Assembly (NCBI RefSeq): GCF_009905545.1
Contig: NZ_JAAALB010000009.1
Span: 124,001 to 188,000, forward strand
From: Cellulophaga sp. BC115SP
GTDB taxonomy: Bacteria; Bacteroidota; Bacteroidia; Cytophagales; Spirosomataceae
Direction of reading: 5' to 3'
DNA length: 64,000 nt
Part shown: positions 2,963 through 47,103 of the stretch, one piece after another
How the letters are laid out: every line of letters starts with the position of its first letter
Numbering within the stretch: position 1 is the stretch's first letter
The notes under the pieces: generated by a model
Database searches by the model: none
What the model saw: only the letters and a program-made list of their open reading frames with translations
Told to the model about the DNA's origin: nothing
Position numbers and translations under genes: made by a program

Positions 2963-5737
2963 CTATTTTAAAAAATCAAAATACAAAACCATTTCAACAG
3001 CTCTTTTAGGCTCTTTTTCGTAGTCATAAAAGACGTGTTTCATACTCATAGGACCTGTGTTGTCAGCTCTGTTAGTTTTAGAACCAATGGCCGAAATACC
3101 TTGCATAAAGGAAATATCGCCACTTGGGAAATTAATCACATAGTTTTGATATGAATCTGTTTTGAAGGCTGGACTAAACAACCTGAAAAATACATCTTCT
3201 GTCTCAGTGACTACGGTAAAAGACTGACCTTTGGTTATAAACTTACACCAATACATATTGGCATGGTATCCTTTGAATTCTGGATAAACAAATGGTATTT
3301 CACCTGTTTCGGTAGTATTATAATCTTTCTGCCAAATACCAAATTGATTTCCTTTCAAACGATTTTTCCATACTCGGTATGGACCATTTCCTAAATACTC
3401 TACACCTTTAATTTCAGATTCTGGAAAAGAAAAGTTAAGTCCAAAATAATTCGTTAAATAAGCCGCTGGGAAATATTTAACTTTCAATTTTACCCAACCC
3501 GATGGATAAATGATCCATTGCAGTGTGTTGAATGCCTCTTTTTTGTCGTAAGTTGATTCAATCACTACATTTTCACCATCAAAACGGGTAGTAATATTTT
3601 TAAAATTGGTACTTCCTTCTTGTACTATTGGGCCGTTGTTGAATGGAATACTTCCTTTTTCCGTTTGTACTGATTTTAGCAAACCTGATTTTTTAGAAAA
3701 ACTAATCGTCAAACCATTCGCCTTGACTACATACAACGAATCTTGTTCTTGAAGCGTAGGTTTGGTACTTCCCGAAGTTTTCACCATTGCCTGTGCCATC
3801 GTTTTTGGCAAGGTAATTTTAAAACTCCAAGTAAAAATTTCTTTCCCAAAAGGGTCAAAAGCGCTTAGATACAAACCGTCATATTCTTGCCAATTTTGTG
3901 GTAGTTGCTGGCATGACACTGTTCCCTTTTCCAAGGGTTTCAAATTGGGCGAAAGGGCTTTACCTGAAAGTTCGGGCAACTGATGTAACCCTAAAGATTT
4001 GAGTTTCCAAGTAAAACGACATTGATTGGTATTGGTAAAATGATAGCGGTTTTCGATAGTAAATTTTCCATCAAAATCGGAAGTAATTTCTTTTGCCTCA
4101 AACTTGATTGGACTCCACACTTCTTTGATGGTAAAATAGCTTCCTTCTTTTTCACGATAAGGACCTACGATGCCGTCCGCGGCACGATTGCCATCAGTAT
4201 CTAGGATGCCATTTTTATCGGTTCTAACTATACCTTGGTCAACAAAATCCCAAAGGAAGCCACCTGCGCAAAGTGGTGTTGTCCATATATGCTCCCAGTA
4301 ATCTTCCAGACCAGCTCCATGGCCGCCATCATACATTCCATGCAAAAACTCGGTTGGCATGACAATGCTATGTCCGTGGTCATAATTACCAATACCGTAG
4401 TTATAATCGCGATAATGCTGTGTGTCGAACCCTGCAAAATCTTCCCATGCGTGAATCACAGGACGTCTTTGTAAATCTTTTTGAGGAAAAATAGGGTCTA
4501 ATTCGTAATTGTGACCACCTTCATTTCCGTTAATCCAAAAAATTACAGAAGGGTGATTTTCATCGTGTTCCATCAACTCTTCAAGACGTTTGGTACCTGT
4601 AGGCGTATCATAATTGCCATGCCAACCCGCCAATTCATCCATTACAAACAAACCCAAAGAGTCACAAGTATCCAGAAAATGATCATCGGGAGGGTAATGC
4701 GACATACGAACGGCGTTCATGTTCATATCTTTCATTAATTGCACGTCGAGTAAGCTTACTGCCTTTGAAGTAGTACGTCCTGAAGTTGGCCAAAACGAGT
4801 GACGATTTACCCCTTTGAACTTTATTTTAGTCCCATTGACATATACGCCATCACGCAATTTTACTTCGACGGTACGGAAACCAATTTTCTTTTCAACCAC
4901 GTGAACCGCTTTCCCATTCTGTAATAAACTTACCATCAATTTGTAGCGATTAGGTGTTTCGGATGTCCAAAGTTGAATGTTTTGATAAAGCTTTTCAAGG
5001 GTTAGTTCAGACTGACCAGCTTTGAGATTTGCTTGAATAGGAGTACCAACCTTTTGACCATTTAAGGTATGTAATTGTGCTGATAAAGTAAGATTTGTAT
5101 TACTTGAAGTAGTACGAATCACTGCCTTTAGATTCCCATTAGCCTTGGCATCAATAGAAACACGAGTAATATGCTGAGTAGGCAAAACCTCTAAATAAAC
5201 TGGACGGAAAATTCCACCAAAAATCCAAAAATCCCCTTTACGCTCAGCCTCATTAACCGACTGATTTGCAGAGTGCTTACTTACTGTTACTTCCAATAGA
5301 TTTTCAGCGCCGTAGTTGAGTAATTGTGCAATAGGATATTTGAAAGCATAATAGGCTCCTTGATGAATTTCACCAGCAGACTTTCCATTGATTTTTACTT
5401 CAGCATCGGTCATAACTCCTTCAAAAACAAGATTTAATGCTTTGCCTTGCCATGACTTGGGAGCTTGAAAATGATATTTGTAAAGTCCTTTTTCCTTACC
5501 TCTTGAGCTATCTTTGGCGAAGCCATAGTTGTATTTGCCAAATCCCTGCAATTCCCAGTTGGATGGAACAGGAATGCTTGTCCATTTGCCAGCATTACGA
5601 CCTTCAGTACAGAAAAAATCCCATGGAACGGTTTGGTCATGCCCTTTTCCAGAAAGATAAACTTTTTGGGTTTCTTGCGCATAGAGAGCCTTAAAACTCA
5701 GTACTAAGAAGAGAAAAAGTAAAATTCTTTTATTCAT
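2963..5737 (-). CDS. Glycoside hydrolase family 2, beta-galactosidase-like
   Basis: 924 aa from the chosen ATG, which begins a clean signal peptide (MNKRILLFLFLVLSFKALYA). An in-frame ATG 60 bases upstream would prepend an untypical extension. The order is a jelly-roll sugar-binding domain (~45-190), an immunoglobulin-like domain (~195-290), a TIM barrel (~295-590) and C-terminal beta-galactosidase small-chain-like domains. Catalytic signatures are visible: WINGNEGG gives the acid/base Glu at about residue 406, and PTEFLHG gives a candidate nucleophile near 463. NRHSFWP and MSHYPP are GH2 hallmarks. It is expected to work in the periplasm on galactose- or arabinose-terminated pectic side chains. 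It lies between the SASA esterase (upstream) and the STN-esterase (downstream). Confidence 0.88.
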   Translation of the reverse strand: MNKRILLFLFLVLSFKALYAQETQKVYLSGKGHDQTVPWDFFCTEGRNAGKWTSIPVPSNWELQGFGKYNYGFAKDSSRGKEKGLYKYHFQAPKSWQGKALNLVFEGVMTDAEVKINGKSAGEIHQGAYYAFKYPIAQLLNYGAENLLEVTVSKHSANQSVNEAERKGDFWIFGGIFRPVYLEVLPTQHITRVSIDAKANGNLKAVIRTTSSNTNLTLSAQLHTLNGQKVGTPIQANLKAGQSELTLEKLYQNIQLWTSETPNRYKLMVSLLQNGKAVHVVEKKIGFRTVEVKLRDGVYVNGTKIKFKGVNRHSFWPTSGRTTSKAVSLLDVQLMKDMNMNAVRMSHYPPDDHFLDTCDSLGLFVMDELAGWHGNYDTPTGTKRLEELMEHDENHPSVIFWINGNEGGHNYELDPIFPQKDLQRRPVIHAWEDFAGFDTQHYRDYNYGIGNYDHGHSIVMPTEFLHGMYDGGHGAGLEDYWEHIWTTPLCAGGFLWDFVDQGIVRTDKNGILDTDGNRAADGIVGPYREKEGSYFTIKEVWSPIKFEAKEITSDFDGKFTIENRYHFTNTNQCRFTWKLKSLGLHQLPELSGKALSPNLKPLEKGTVSCQQLPQNWQEYDGLYLSAFDPFGKEIFTWSFKITLPKTMAQAMVKTSGSTKPTLQEQDSLYVVKANGLTISFSKKSGLLKSVQTEKGSIPFNNGPIVQEGSTNFKNITTRFDGENVVIESTYDKKEAFNTLQWIIYPSGWVKLKVKYFPAAYLTNYFGLNFSFPESEIKGVEYLGNGPYRVWKNRLKGNQFGIWQKDYNTTETGEIPFVYPEFKGYHANMYWCKFITKGQSFTVVTETEDVFFRLFSPAFKTDSYQNYVINFPSGDISFMQGISAIGSKTNRADNTGPMSMKHVFYDYEKEPKRAVEMVLYFDFLK

Positions 5738-5836: not shown

Positions 5837-7261
5837 TTACTTTTTACTGGTAAATGGTCGTGCAGGGAGTCCCTCTTTGTTGAAAAAATTAGGTTCTGCA
5901 TCCTCTTGCCATGCAAATCGGATTGTTTTGGGTTCTGGAACTTTTTCGGAAAAAACTTCCACTTGGGTGCCTACAACAATGGCTTTTGCTTCGTGAAATT
6001 TTCCGTCAGCACCTGCTAGACTAAAATAGTTGAGGTCTTTTCCATCTTTACTCATCAAACCCCCACCCATAGAATCAAAGGATAAAATAGCTTTATCATT
6101 TCTGATTTTCATTTTTTTGAAAATGGGTCCAGAGGCAACTAAACCTTTTTTCCCGTAATCATGCTTCAGAGCTAAAAGTGCCAAACGTTTCCCGATTTCC
6201 CATTTGTACCAAGGATGAATATTGGTCAAAGTATCTGCCAAATCGGTCGTAGTTACGAAGTCAGTGTACTTTACTCTTTGAGTTACATTGGCTTGCGCTT
6301 GCCAAAAAGTAGGAAGAGTTTCCTTTTCCAAAACTACCTTACCTGTACTTTTTGAGTAGAGATAAGGGACTAATTGCACATAGTAAAAAGGCATTTTATT
6401 GTCTTTCCAAGCTTTTCTCCAACTACTAATCAGCGTTTCCATCTTGTTGGTATATTGTACCGAATCTTTCAAGAAACAATTACTTTCGCCCTGATACCAC
6501 AAAAATCCTTTCATGACAAATGACTCTAAAGGACGAATCATAGGATTATAAAACTTTGCAGGCTCACCTTCTACTTTTTGTCCTTTGAAATAAGGAGAAC
6601 CAGCAAAAGCTTCTTCCGAAATCCAAGGTTCTATTCTACTGCCTGGGATAGCCGACGAAATCATACCGATGGGCACGCCTGTCTGCTGGTGAACTTCTTT
6701 AGCAAAAAAGTAAGCAACAGCCGAAAAAGAACGCAAGGCGGAGTCTTGTGCTATACTCCACCCTTTGTGTTGTGGATCAGGTTTTATTAATTCTTTTCTG
6801 TTGACTAAAAAAATACGAATCAGTGGATTTTTGGCCACTTCCAACTCATCAACAGGATTGGGATCTGGGAGATTGGGACGTTTTACCTTACTGTTTTTTC
6901 GCATGGTATATTCCATATTCGACTGACCAGAGCATAGCCATACTTCTCCTATTAGGATATTTTTAAGCGTAATAACTTCCTTTCCTTCAATTCTTAACTC
7001 TTGAGGAATGCTTGTGGCTGGTAGTGCCTTGAGCCATACTTGCCAATTTCCTTCAGAATCTGCTGTTGTTTTGGCGGATTGTCCTGAAAATTGGACATTG
7101 ATTTGCTCCCCAACAGAGGCTTTTCCCCAAATATGAATAGGTTTTTTTTGTTGAAAAACCATATTATGCCCCAAAATTCGAGGTAAGACAATTTGTGCTT
7201 TTACCGAAAAAATCGAGCAAAAACTAAGTATTAACAGAATATATGATTTGATTTTTTTCAT
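5837..7261 (-). CDS. Sialate O-acetylesterase-type (SASA) carbohydrate esterase
   Basis: 474 aa with signal peptide MKKIKSYILLILSFCSIFSVKA. The SASA/DUF303 fold is shown by LCSGQSNMEYTM (Ser114 as nucleophile), GFLWYQGESN in the middle, and TDLADTLTNIHPWYKWEIGKR with the late Asp/His pair. In pectin loci this family usually removes acetyl groups from galacturonic acid or rhamnose; a sialate substrate is unlikely here. The gene starts just downstream of the palindromic cassette that carries a duplicate of the kinase 3' end. It is probably read from the same leftward transcript unless the cassette terminates it. Confidence 0.85.
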   Translation of the reverse strand: MKKIKSYILLILSFCSIFSVKAQIVLPRILGHNMVFQQKKPIHIWGKASVGEQINVQFSGQSAKTTADSEGNWQVWLKALPATSIPQELRIEGKEVITLKNILIGEVWLCSGQSNMEYTMRKNSKVKRPNLPDPNPVDELEVAKNPLIRIFLVNRKELIKPDPQHKGWSIAQDSALRSFSAVAYFFAKEVHQQTGVPIGMISSAIPGSRIEPWISEEAFAGSPYFKGQKVEGEPAKFYNPMIRPLESFVMKGFLWYQGESNCFLKDSVQYTNKMETLISSWRKAWKDNKMPFYYVQLVPYLYSKSTGKVVLEKETLPTFWQAQANVTQRVKYTDFVTTTDLADTLTNIHPWYKWEIGKRLALLALKHDYGKKGLVASGPIFKKMKIRNDKAILSFDSMGGGLMSKDGKDLNYFSLAGADGKFHEAKAIVVGTQVEVFSEKVPEPKTIRFAWQEDAEPNFFNKEGLPARPFTSKK

Positions 7262-7277
7262 AAAAACTTCAATAGTT

Positions 7278-7490
7278 TTAAGCTAAATCCCCTCTAACTA
7301 ATCCAAAATAGTTTGCTGCGCCCACTTGAGCTCACTAGTTCAAGACTTAGTCTTGGACTTATCTTTTTATACAGTTTATAAATTGAAACAAAAGCTAGTC
7401 CGAGACTAAGTTTCGAACTAGGGAAATTACCTTATTACTTAAGCTAAATCCCCTCTAACTAATCCAAAATAATTTGCAGCGCCCACTTGA
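7278..7490. repeat. Palindromic cassette bounded by a duplicated gene 3' end
   Basis: Bases 7439-7490 are the last codons and stop of the kinase gene. Bases 7278-7329 repeat the same 52 bases with two mismatches, 161 bp away. Both mismatches are synonymous in the kinase frame. Between them lie two ~25-base arms in inverted orientation: 7334-7359 (CTAGTTCAAGACTTAGTC...) and 7394-7421. Each arm is itself close to palindromic around ACTTAGT/ACTAAGT. The layout resembles a paired REP (BIME-like) unit inserted at a gene end with regeneration of that end. Confidence 0.75.
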
Positions 7491-8770
7491 CCACCTTTGA
7501 CATTAACTTCCAGGCCATTGATGGTTTTGTTGGAAGAATATACCCGACAAAGTGGTGCCCCTTTTACCACAGGTGCAATCATCTCTAATGCCTCTATTTC
7601 AAGTGCACGCGCTGCATAACTCGACGTATCGCCTCCTGCAATCAGCAAACGGGTAAGATGCGTTGATTCGATGACTTTTTTAGCAATCAATCCCAAGGCA
7701 GTTCCCAGTTTTTCGGATGACAGAGGAATACTTTCTTGTGAGCCTCCTTGGGTATGAATCATAACAGATTTCCCGTTTTCGATATAACTAATAGCTTGAT
7801 TAATATAGGATTGTAAGATATTCTCAGATAACTCTTCCTGTGCAATTAGTGGCGCATCAATGATGATTTCGATAAAATCATGTTGCTTTGCCCAATCAAT
7901 TTGAGCGCTTGTTACAGGCGAGCAACTTCCTGAAATCACCAACAAAGCATCTACTTTTGCGAGTGGTTGCCAAGTATTTTTAGGTGAAAAAACACCTTGC
8001 TGGTTCCAGTAGGAACCCAATGCCATTTCGATACCTGATGAGCCAATTGAAAATAAGATGTTAGGCTGTTCTTGCGCTTTTTCCTCTAAAAATTCTCCAA
8101 TTGTTAGTAAATGATCTTCATTGATGGCATCCATAAACAACGCCTTTTTGCCTGATGAAACTTGTTCGTTATGTGCTTTTGCTAAGTTGTTAGCTTCTAC
8201 CTGCAAAATATCGAGTAAACCAATTTCTACAGAAGTTTGTCTACCCAAATGCAAACGTAAATCGGCTTCGTCGGCGGGTGTTACGGGATGCTTGCTCATA
8301 GATGGATGGCGATCGAGACGATAGATTTGTCCATCGCTACCGATTCCCATACGAGCAAAGAGATTTCCAAAAACAGAGTACCGACCCAAAGATGGTGCTG
8401 CTACCAAAATAGGTGTCCATTGATTTTTGAATTGAGCCAAGCCCAATTCAAGCACCAAGCCGATGTTTCCTATTGCTGGAGAAGAATCGAATGTTGAACA
8501 AACCTTATAATGCACATGCTTAAGAGGTAGTTGAGCAAGCGCCTCAAAAGCAGGTGCTAACTCCTTTTGCATAGCCTCTACACCCAAAGCACGAGTTCGC
8601 CCTGCAATACCAATGGCTTGTAATTGAGGATATTGCTGTAGTTTTTCAACTGAGGGAACCTCAAAAAACAAAATGGTATTTAGTCCAGCTCTTGATAAAA
8701 ACTCCAAGGCATCGGTCGAACCCGTAAAATCATCGCCATAATAGGCAATAGACAACTGTGGTATTTGCAT
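7439..8770 (-). CDS. DUF1537 four-carbon acid sugar kinase family protein
   Basis: 443 aa with no signal peptide, so cytoplasmic. The N-terminal YYGDDFTGSTDALEFL motif is the hallmark of the OtnK/DUF1537 kinase family. The C-terminal domain carries a glycine-rich nucleotide-binding segment (IAGGDTSSYAARALE, then VKGAPLCRVY and NVKGGQVGAANYFG). Characterised members phosphorylate 3-oxo-tetronate or D-threonate/erythronate, and some act on related acid sugars. Here it may process a breakdown product of an acidic sugar released from pectin. It starts 2 bases after the GH140-like stop, so translational coupling is likely. Its last 52 bases are duplicated downstream. Confidence 0.85.
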   Translation of the reverse strand: MQIPQLSIAYYGDDFTGSTDALEFLSRAGLNTILFFEVPSVEKLQQYPQLQAIGIAGRTRALGVEAMQKELAPAFEALAQLPLKHVHYKVCSTFDSSPAIGNIGLVLELGLAQFKNQWTPILVAAPSLGRYSVFGNLFARMGIGSDGQIYRLDRHPSMSKHPVTPADEADLRLHLGRQTSVEIGLLDILQVEANNLAKAHNEQVSSGKKALFMDAINEDHLLTIGEFLEEKAQEQPNILFSIGSSGIEMALGSYWNQQGVFSPKNTWQPLAKVDALLVISGSCSPVTSAQIDWAKQHDFIEIIIDAPLIAQEELSENILQSYINQAISYIENGKSVMIHTQGGSQESIPLSSEKLGTALGLIAKKVIESTHLTRLLIAGGDTSSYAARALEIEALEMIAPVVKGAPLCRVYSSNKTINGLEVNVKGGQVGAANYFGLVRGDLA

Positions 8771-29297: not shown

Positions 29298-29408
29298 AAA
29301 TGTCTAATTATGAGGAAAATGTAAAGTCTTAAGTATCATGAAAAAGTGATTAAGATGTCTGGACTTTGTAACTGATTTTTGCAAAACAGTTTTAGACTGC
29401 CTAAAAAA

Positions 29409-29437
29409 GCTAGTCCAAGACTAAGTCTTGAACTAGG
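29409..29437. repeat. Single palindromic REP-like unit related to the 7334/7394 arms
   Basis: The bases CTAGTCCAAGACTAAGTC... through GAACTAG form a near-perfect palindrome centred on ACTAAGT. Its reverse complement matches the arm at 7334-7359 almost base for base. The surrounding 29298-29540 gap carries no supported gene. Confidence 0.65.
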
Positions 29438-38185: not shown

Positions 38186-38404
38186 ATGAGTTATCCTGAA
38201 TTTTTCGGGATTGGGATTATGCTCTAAGTTTTTATCAAAAAAGTGGTCGAAAAATATTTTTCGACCACTTTTTTGATGCTATTATGCTAGATATGACTTG
38301 GTTTAAGACGCAATCATTGCGTCTCTACTGATGGAATACAAATTTTAAATTAATTAATCGCTCGCTCACTCAATCTCTAAATCGCTAAATTCGAGATGAC
38401 TCAT
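38186..38404. mobile_element. MITE-like element, family A, copy 1 (219 bp)
   Basis: The ends are terminal inverted repeats: ATGAGTTATCCTGAATTT at 38186 and, reversed, AAATTCGAGATGACTCAT at the right. Inside is a 44-bp perfect palindrome at 38234-38277 (core GTGGTCGAAAAAT / ATTTTTCGACCAC), then a second hairpin with AGACGCAAT / ATTGCGTCT at 38306-38324, then ACTCAATC-type words. A second copy with the same order is at 46855-47103. No coding capacity. It lies between SusD and GH95 and could terminate SusCD transcription. Confidence 0.7.
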
Positions 38405-43956: not shown

Positions 43957-44500
43957 GCTATATTACAAAAGTATTTTTACAGGAAGACTAATGATTTTTA
44001 GTCATCTAGCCTTTTCTCAAAACTGGAAAGTTGTTTCTAATTCAATTACTTTTAAAATCAAACATGCTTTTGGCGCCACAGCCGAAGGAAATATTGGAGG
44101 CTTTAGTGGTTCGATATATTTTGACACCAATCAATTATCTAAGACAAATATGAATGCCAGTCTTGAAGCCCGAACAATAGACACAGGTTTGGGCTTACGG
44201 GACAAAACACTCAAGGGAAGCAAGTATTTTGAGATAGAAAAATTCCCCAAAATATCAATTACCAGCACTAAAATCGAGCATGGAGCTAAGGAAAATGAGT
44301 ACATAGGAAGTTTTGATTTGACACTTAAAAGCAAGACAAAAAATATCAAAATTCCATTTAATTTCATTAAAACCACAAACTCAGGGCAATTTAAAGCCAG
44401 TTTTCAAATTAATAGGCTAGATTTTGACATCGGTGAATCAAGTGCATTACTTGGTGATATAGTTACAATTTTTGTTACCATAAATACTGTTCCATTATGA
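43940..44500 (+). CDS. YceI-family periplasmic protein
   Basis: About 186 aa from a TTG at 43940 that overlaps the barrel gene by 17 bp; an ATG at 43991 is the alternative and would shorten the leader. The leader MIFSHLAFSQ-type end suggests export. The YceI lipocalin-like domain runs from WKVVSNSITFKIKHAFGATAEGNIGGFSGSIYFD to SFDLTLKSKTKNIKIPFNF and IGESSALLGDIVTIFVTI. YceI proteins bind isoprenoid-type lipids, and many are induced by stress. Its stop codon overlaps the next ATG by 4 bp. Confidence 0.8.
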   Translation: MVIKNKLYYKSIFTGRLMIFSHLAFSQNWKVVSNSITFKIKHAFGATAEGNIGGFSGSIYFDTNQLSKTNMNASLEARTIDTGLGLRDKTLKGSKYFEIEKFPKISITSTKIEHGAKENEYIGSFDLTLKSKTKNIKIPFNFIKTTNSGQFKASFQINRLDFDIGESSALLGDIVTIFVTINTVPL

Positions 44501-45003
44501 GAAGCAAAGGCGTTTCACTACAGATTATCAGACAGTTAGAGAATGTGCTGTCTAGCATAGATGTAACACAGTACACCCAACCTTTAGCTGTTTTTAATGG
44601 TAGTAGTTTGGGACAACATGTACGTCATACAATCGAGTTTTTCCAATGCTTTATAGAGGGTCTTGAAAATGATGTTATTGACTACGATGCTCGAAAAAGA
44701 GATATACAAATTGAAAACGATTTAGCCTATACGCTCGACTGTTTGAGAAATATCTCAGCAAGGATTCTTGAAATTTCAAATACAGAGAAGCCATTATTTA
44801 TCGCCACTTATTATGATGACGCCATTCCAGAAATGGTCGTTTCTAATGTGCAACGAGAGTTGGTGTATTTGATAGAGCACTCTATCCACCATTTTGCATT
44901 GGTTCGCATTGGAGTTCAAGAAAATTTCCCAGAGATTTCTCTTCCATTTAGTTTTGGCATAGCGTATTCTACTATTAAATACCGAGAAAGTGTTTCGGTG
45001 TAA
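44497..45003 (+). CDS. DinB-like (metal-binding four-helix) protein
   Basis: 168 aa. The first His pair is in SSLGQHVRHTIEFFQCF and the second in YLIEHSIHHFALVRIG; together they form the metal site of the DinB/YfiT-like fold. Predicted mostly helical and cytoplasmic. Members may be thiol-S-transferases, and this one sits in a redox-flavoured cluster. It overlaps YceI by 4 bp, so the two are translationally coupled. The last codons and 20 bases beyond its stop are duplicated 160 bp downstream. Confidence 0.78.
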   Translation: MRSKGVSLQIIRQLENVLSSIDVTQYTQPLAVFNGSSLGQHVRHTIEFFQCFIEGLENDVIDYDARKRDIQIENDLAYTLDCLRNISARILEISNTEKPLFIATYYDDAIPEMVVSNVQRELVYLIEHSIHHFALVRIGVQENFPEISLPFSFGIAYSTIKYRESVSV

Positions 45004-45183
45004 GTAGCATTTTTTTTCATTCATTAGCCTTTGTTGGAGTTTTCTCCAACAAACTGGCGACAGCAACAAACCAGCTAAATCATGATCCTCGGCACTTAAT
45101 TTGTTGCTTACGCTAGAATCGTTGGAGATAACTCCAACGATGGCAAAAAGTGTTTCGATGTAAGTAGCATTTTTTTACATTCA
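44985..45183. repeat. Second palindromic cassette bounded by a duplicated gene 3' end
   Basis: Bases 44985-45023, the end of the DinB-like gene plus ~20 bases, recur at 45145-45183 with three mismatches, 160 bp away. Between them are two hairpins, GTTGGAGTTTTCTCCAAC (45034-45051) and CGTTGGAGATAACTCCAACG (45120-45139), in an overall inverted arrangement that also pairs GCG..AGCAACAA with TTGTTGCTTACGC. The architecture matches the cassette at 7278-7490, although the palindrome sequence differs. Confidence 0.75.
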
Positions 45184-46854: not shown

Positions 46855-47103
46855 ATGAGTCATCCCGAATTTTGGAATAACTTAAAATAGAGACCTCTTG
46901 TTTGTGTTTATTGGGATTCAACAAGGTGAACGATTGTACTGTTTATGCAAAAAGGCGGTCGAAAAACTCATTTCGACCGCCTTTTTGCATACTATATTCC
47001 AACATGACATCTCTTTAGACGCAAAGCATTGCGTCTCTACTAGTAACATCTAGATTAAAAATAATCACTCATGCGCTCAATCACTAAATTTAGGATGACT
47101 CAT
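46855..47103. mobile_element. MITE-like element, family A, copy 2 (249 bp)
   Basis: Terminal inverted repeats ATGAGTCATCCCGAATTT at the left and AAATTTAGGATGACTCAT at the right. Inside, a perfect 20-bp stem with 6-base loop at 46945-46990 (core GGCGGTCGAAA / TTTCGACCGCC) and an AGACGCAAAGCATTGCGTCT hairpin at 47017-47035, in the same order as in copy 1 at 38186. No coding capacity. It sits between HxlR and the SusD gene, convergent to both, so it may provide bidirectional termination. Confidence 0.7.

Follow-up and report, generated by a model that had tools for sequence, protein, structure and literature searches.

A pair of inverted palindromes, bracketed by two copies of the 3' end of a DUF1537-family kinase gene, was inserted between this gene and its neighbour, both of them sugar-metabolism genes, in the lineage of the genome studied here, since the site holds a single gene end, and the element is absent, in both relatives whose version of the gene is 89-96% identical at the protein level. 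Judged by its substitutions, the working gene end beside the element is of an ancestry different from that of its surroundings and of the orphaned copy. The DNA analysed, called the window, is a stretch of 64 kb.

The dissemination mechanisms of REP-like elements are called poorly understood in the abstract of PMC8266576, and the routes by which palindrome pairs of this kind reach new sites are poorly known. Here a filled site can be compared with two empty relatives and a readable scar stands beside a mosaic gene end, while a second scar, around an element of another family, lies 38 kb away in the same window. Such scars allow one to ask whether the elements move by a transposase, by recombination between alleles or by repair at hairpins. 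Among the literature matches listed, none described a REP-like pair enclosed by a long duplication of a gene end.

The duplicated end of the kinase gene

The genome of the window (G000) was compared with those of Flectobacillus longus LYT7W (G001) and Flectobacillus sp. BAB-3569 (G003), the three belonging to one genus, Flectobacillus, by gene identity. The kinase protein was matched in 6 of 39 genomes, its own included (G000, G001, G003, G004, G017 and G019), with an identity of 96% in G001, 89% in G003 and 59% in G004; the matches in G017 and G019 were weak. The locus contains the following features.

5837-7261, minus strand: SASA-type carbohydrate esterase gene (PF03629), the next gene of the same-strand cluster
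7278-7329, minus strand: orphan copy of the 3' end of the DUF1537 gene, stop codon included, assigned to the resident allele (50/52 to 7439-7490, 52/52 to G001)
7330-7334, no strand: 5-nt junction of orphan end and element, of which only the last A is common to many other copies
7335-7421, no strand: palindrome-pair element of family B, 87 bp, CTAG at both ends (75 full copies in three Flectobacillus genomes)
7335-7359, plus strand: first palindromic arm (arm complementarity, pattern scan)
7371-7385, no strand: central short palindrome, ACAGTTTATAAACTG in many copies, with one mismatch here (copy sequences)
7395-7421, minus strand: second palindromic arm, inverted (arm complementarity, pattern scan)
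7422-7438, no strand: 17-nt spacer before the stop codon (no other match in five Flectobacillus genomes)
7439-7490, minus strand: gene-end copy of the intact reading frame (50/52 to 7278-7329)
7439-7645, minus strand: gene stretch of discordant ancestry adjoining the element (differences to G001, two-state sites)
7439-8770, minus strand: DUF1537-family kinase gene, 443 aa (PF07005, SBD_N; PF17042, NBD_C)

An earlier note on this DNA had described a 52-base gene end repeated 161 bp away with silent changes, and this was confirmed by alignment: 7278-7329 and 7439-7490 are identical at 50 of 52 positions with a spacing of 161, both mismatches are silent, and the same C-terminus, QVGAANYFGLVRGDLA-stop, is read from both copies. 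The repeat begins exactly at the stop codon, as the note had it, the next base outward being T in one copy and C in the other. The inverted arms reported between the copies were also found (7332-7359 and 7397-7424, 86% complementary, with 37 nt between them). A pattern derived from the arms gave 6 matches in the window, each of the two arms here and a half element at 29410 being matched on both strands, compared with 0 in 100 shuffles. In a scan of the 64-kb window, direct repeats of 18 nt or more lying no further than 400 bp apart fell into three families: the 52-nt pair, a gene-end pair at 44987/45147 and the DFNNDGYLDIV repeat, which from its sequence looks like a coding repeat. A chance origin of the 52-nt pair is excluded by the repeat identity, the shuffles of the arm pattern and the window scan.

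The element core (7335-7421) is separated from the repeats by unconserved filler of 5 nt (7330-7334) and 17 nt (7422-7438). For the 17-nt spacer together with the preceding CTAG no other match at up to 3 mismatches was found in five Flectobacillus genomes. The insert folds strongly as RNA (109 nt, -34.8 kcal/mol, z -5.5) and the element folds strongly as a DNA single strand (88 nt, -19, z -5.9). The Rfam search returned 10 matches at E <= 1, all of them microRNA families far below their gathering scores, and an Rfam RNA identity of the element was rejected on this basis.

In G001 and in G003, which lack the element here, a 16-nt gap separates a single kinase gene end from the esterase gene. 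In G000 the order is now gene end, 109 bp with the palindrome pair, second gene end, gap and next gene, the gap between the two reading frames having grown from 16 to 177 nt. The target at 7278-7490 is thus duplicated in G000 and single in both empty sites, and the insertion at a gene end that had been suggested is borne out. Since the outer copy (7278-7329) equals the G001 gene end at all 52 positions and is colinear with the intergenic DNA and the neighbour gene of G001 and G003, it is, on these alignments, the displaced resident gene end. The 100 bp beyond it differ from G001 by 1%, whereas the working end diverges.

About 6 kb were aligned to G001 and G003 by script after removal of the element and the orphan copy. 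G000 differs from G001 at 225 of 6039 sites. In the stretch 7439-7645, 20 of 207 sites differ from G001, compared with 79 of 2855 further right; this is next to the maximum (21) of any 207-site window in the 6-kb alignment, and among 2000 permutations none reached 20 at 7439-7645 and 2% reached it at any place. Fifteen of the 20 differences are silent. Two-state informative sites join G000 with G001 in 4 of 24 cases within 7439-7645, compared with 370 of 440 on the right (Fisher p ~5e-12) and 227 of 341 on the left (p ~2e-6), and the minimum over any 24 consecutive informative sites of the alignment falls exactly on 7472-7645. It is this difference count together with the pattern of two-state sites that assigns a discordant ancestry to the gene end, and the diverged allele that the earlier note had supposed is found there, in the working copy. 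A second discordant stretch, where G000 groups less with G001 than the surroundings do, was seen at about 4546-4769; allele imports in this gene cluster may also occur without an element.

The reading frame of the kinase is complete, and the esterase keeps its natural leader, since the orphan end, next to which the 16-nt leader is retained, still precedes the esterase gene. If the two genes are cotranscribed, a strong hairpin would lie in the message between them and might affect its stability.

The element family and its flanks

Copies of family B were gathered from fetched stretches of G000, G001 and G003, and the copy numbers are lower bounds. The searches scored 40 of 138 candidates in G000 and 40 of 114 in the genus search, therefore all counts are given as "at least"; the place C140:15895-15985 of G000 matched and was left out of the extracted copies, as were several places of G003 and G001. 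A copy was called full when it matched the consensus from position 8 or earlier to position 79 or later of 87. At least 97 places were extracted, 75 of them full (at least 33 in G000, at least 25 in G003 and at least 17 in G001). The family was present in three of the five genomes of the genus search; in the other 36 of the 39 genomes the element had no match at E <= 0.001. Gene context was assigned by a simple ORF rule, by which 50 of the 75 full copies lie between codirectional, 23 between convergent and 2 between divergent genes, and none in a long ORF.

The likeness to paired REP (BIME) units proposed earlier was thus supported by a dispersed paired palindrome. As far as REPINs and BIMEs are described in parts of PMC3116915 and PMC8266576, family B is like them in its many dispersed, extragenic copies of two inverted palindromes with a short spacer, in its strong folding as a single strand, in its tandem arrays with flanks and its single-palindrome forms, and in its position, the simple ORF rule placing 73 of 75 copies between genes that are codirectional or convergent. 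It is unlike those described there in three respects: the compared copies typically begin and end with CTAG, with no GTAG tag 5' of the stem; the family adjoins none of the RAYT-type loci; and the window copy is bracketed by a gene-end duplication. The RAYT-type gene that was to be looked for is present in G000 (NCBIfam NF047646, 97 bits with a cut-off of 80), but it sits with a different palindrome of its own. No family-B element was found in any of the six RAYT-type loci of G000, G001 and G003 (L115, L116, L117, L195, L196 and L197), while L115-L117, where the G000 RAYT and its two orthologs stand, hold the palindrome GGTGCTGGAT..ATCCAGCACC. The G000 RAYT therefore finds no support as mobiliser of family B, being accompanied by its own palindrome, and since the RAYT-type loci hold no family-B element, the family is by its form REPIN/BIME-like and not a proven REPIN.

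Flanking repeats were rare among the other copies. In G000, 5 of the 33 full copies belong to tandem arrays or pairs with array repeats (L055, L034), and direct repeats of more than 20 nt flank, apart from these, only the window copy, L044 and L054. The repeats at L044 (114 bp) and at L079 of G003 (69 bp) carry the palindrome of the RAYT, which is recurrent in these genomes. The 42-bp repeat at L054 is of the AATTTGAAAAT type, which occurs several times at the G003 site, and the G001 ortholog has the element without the right copy. For a more sensitive test, 57 single copies were compared with a threshold set at the 99th percentile of mismatched flank pairs; 18 of the 75 copies were dropped as arrays or pairs (L055, L034, L074, L088, L101, L092) or for RAYT-palindrome repeats (L044, L079). 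Only the window copy, L077 and L054 exceeded the threshold, that is, one clear flank duplication and two doubtful ones. The mean flank excess had p = 0.0006 with the window copy and 0.015 without it; when L054 was also left out p was 0.12, and without L054 and L077 it was 0.22. In L077 (G003, element at 1549-1634) the left and right flanks, 2 and 10 nt from the element, agree in 45 of 68 columns, and the G001 site without the element (L166) has a single copy of the left flank. This match was equalled by 118 of 5000 shuffles, which is not significant allowing for the 57 copies tested; an old duplication of about 65 bp, since decayed, may have left this trace at L077.

The full copies of G000 were also compared with their G001 and G003 orthologs (58 pairs of 66 sought), and in 11 of these pairs the relative had no detectable element; few of the comparisons are clean, the differences in many element-less relatives covering the entire intergenic stretch. 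An overlapping target was obtained in the two window pairs, in the L055 array compared with G003 (four rows), and at L044 through the RAYT palindrome. Ten G003 or G001 copies without a partner in the fetched G000 set gave a doubled target in none of the 15 comparable pairs (18 sought). The duplication was therefore rejected as a constant hallmark of family B, nearly all other tested copies being without a comparable flank repeat. This is also the outcome of the refuting condition that the earlier note had set itself, and its idea that the element brings or regenerates the gene end is not supported; the outer gene end is best read as the displaced end of the resident and not as part of the element.

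The second duplicated end and the origin of the duplications

The other gene-end pair of the window surrounds an element that is unrelated to family B.

44497-45003, plus strand: gene of 168 aa with a duplicated 3' end
44987-45023, plus strand: gene-end copy in the intact gene, 37 nt (local repeat scan)
45024-45149, no strand: unrelated dispersed palindrome pair, family C
45147-45183, plus strand: orphan copy of the gene end, 35/37 (local repeat scan and relatives)

The copies 44987-45023 and 45147-45183 agree at 35 of 37 positions with a spacing of 160 and abut the family-C element, lying 2 and 0 nt away from it. In G001 the element is absent and the gene end is single, the two matches overlapping by 35 nt at 218374-218408 of contig 9; in G003 the element is present without the full duplication. 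Bases absent from G001 and G003 occur in both copies of G000, so that in the second case a single allele seems to have been duplicated. Seventeen single copies out of 42 full ones of family C were tested, and a flank repeat was found only at the window copy (p of the flank excess 0.24 with this copy, 0.87 without it); the other 25 were dropped as loci with several units, some of which have flanking repeats of their own (L222, 34 nt; L243, 18 and 62 nt; L245, 59 nt). The cleanest of three comparisons with element-less relatives, L223 and its element-less G001 ortholog L270, showed no long duplication; in L222/L264 and L232/L271 the differences extend over wider stretches. The divergence step at the second element was rejected as proof of an import, the same step being found between G001 and G003. 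In G001 the first palindrome of family C stands alone at several sites (L220, L227, L229, L239).

The reading that we favour for the kinase gene, with slightly less than even confidence, is homology-facilitated illegitimate recombination (HFIR), a one-sided event by which the old gene end was orphaned. In HFIR the illegitimate end often lies at a microhomology between donor and resident. The donor DNA would have contained the 3' end of this gene from a related allele, its stop codon followed by the palindrome pair. It would have entered by homologous recombination inside the kinase gene (from about 7645 onward), while its other end, just past the palindrome, would have been joined without real homology some 52-56 bp inside the old gene end. 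The old end would remain as an orphan, the reading frame would be whole, the next gene would keep its own leader, and the hairpin would become part of the operon transcript. Such an event should be harmless to both genes, since the frame stays whole and the esterase leader is kept. HFIR is reported as rare in the part of PMC5361080 that concerns it, where the same one-sided logic is put forward to explain the orphan immunity genes of T6SS arrays in Vibrio: there too one end is homologous and the other illegitimate, and the resident 3' part is kept downstream as an orphan; unlike in those arrays, here only 52 bp are left and the joint adjoins a repeated palindrome pair. Small variable segments in E. 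coli and other species are partly ascribed to homology-assisted illegitimate recombination (PMC2884548). They are likewise short replacement blocks between close relatives, some with palindromic units, but a duplicated gene end is not among the features described in the sections of that paper concerned.

HFIR is supported by the empty site with one gene end in G001 and in G003, by the identity of the orphan to the G001 end while the working end diverges, and by the discordant stretch abutting the element; its part 7472-7645, beside the joint, would provide the homologous end, although it may be a separate later import. The 17-nt spacer is unmatched in the five genomes, as expected if it is donor-derived. 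The G003 site of the second case, with gene, palindrome pair and no full duplication, has the arrangement that the model requires of a donor. Against HFIR, a donor with the element behind the kinase gene was not found in the genomes searched for the gene (39 genomes; named records), and the discordant stretch could be a later homologous import clipped at the duplication; another such stretch exists at about 4546-4769. In the second case one allele seems to have been duplicated, and the repeats there reach the element almost without a gap, an arrangement not predicted by HFIR. Nor does HFIR gain support from the divergence step at that element, because G001 and G003 show the same step. The main rival, which seems somewhat unlikely, is that the pair transposed, or was copied, into a staggered or single-stranded target whose repair duplicated a variable 37-56 bp, the discordant gene stretch having come later by ordinary recombination. 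This would account for two unrelated palindrome pairs in 64 kb, each between target copies and each with an element-less, single-copy site in G001, for the gene-end pairs being two of the three local repeat families of at least 18 nt (the third being coding-like), and for the abutting, one-allele repeats of the second case; L077 is a possible third, decayed example, within the statistical limits given above. A variable target duplication fits the second case better, but it is not a visible rule for either family: only 3 of 57 family-B and 1 of 17 family-C single copies are above the 99th percentile, the family-B excess fades to p = 0.015 without the window copy and 0.22 also without L054 and L077, the G001 ortholog of L054 has the element without the right-hand repeat, and L223/L270 show no long duplication. 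Neither is the length constant: it is 52 nt in one case and 37 in the other, and almost none of the other single copies tested shows a duplication. In the first case the element and the repeats are kept apart by filler of 5 and 17 nt. We consider it unlikely that one common process brings at least two unrelated palindrome-pair families into the DNA of Flectobacillus and duplicates 37-56 bp of the target, often with a gene end involved. By such a process, which we doubt to the same degree, the restored end would keep the upstream gene intact and older duplications would have decayed, of which L077 may be one; if it is real, it would be a long-duplication mode of insertion, undescribed for REP-like elements among the literature matches listed.

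A tandem duplication of flank and element, followed by loss of one element to leave flank-element-flank, is improbable. Tandem REPINs with flanks, and REPIN excision, are reported in part of PMC3116915, flank-plus-element arrays exist here (four units at L055, two at L034), and a tandem duplication of 190 bp (97%) comprises the RAYT 3' end and its palindrome; but the route takes more steps than HFIR, since after insertion and duplication an excision must leave no footprint and re-create the exact G001/G003 junction. Least credible, and hardly to be expected at all, is the remnant of a site-specific integrative element that recombined at the 3' end of the gene and then shrank by deletion to 109 bp. 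Site-specific integration of this kind typically restores the gene end with silent differences and displaces the end of the resident. The intervening DNA is a dispersed repeat without room for an integrase gene, and the discordant stretch extends about 155 bp past the duplication into the gene, which site-specific integration leaves unchanged.

Other palindromic repeats

Several further arrangements were observed. At L039, L040, L052 and L053 a full family-B pair in one genome corresponds to a single palindrome of the outer half-arms in a relative (G001 or G003), which would be explained by exact loss, or by gain inside a palindrome. Neither relative seems to have more than one palindrome at L039, and a gain in G000 is suggested there. 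Half elements of family B (window 29387-29436; L065-L070) lie inside short units, several of them bounded by TGATTACTGGACAAAA and TTTTGTCCAGTAATCA, and these units resemble a MITE that might have captured one arm.

L055 in G000, L101 in G001 and L088 in G003 are tandem arrays of 138-bp units, each consisting of the element and about 50 bp of flank; the array has 4 units in G000, 3 full and 1 partial in G001, and 2 in G003. The tandem duplication of the RAYT 3' end and its palindrome (190 bp, 97%) lies at L115 1923-2297 (G000, contig C35), and a related one is found in G001 (L116 1291-1588, 93%). Perfect inverted repeats of the AAAAAGTGGTCGAAA / AAAAGGCGGTCGAAA type occur at 38234-38277 and 46944-46991 of the window and probably represent another dispersed hairpin family; AAAGCGGTCGAAA hairpins of a similar kind adjoin element copies in L046, L062 and L228.
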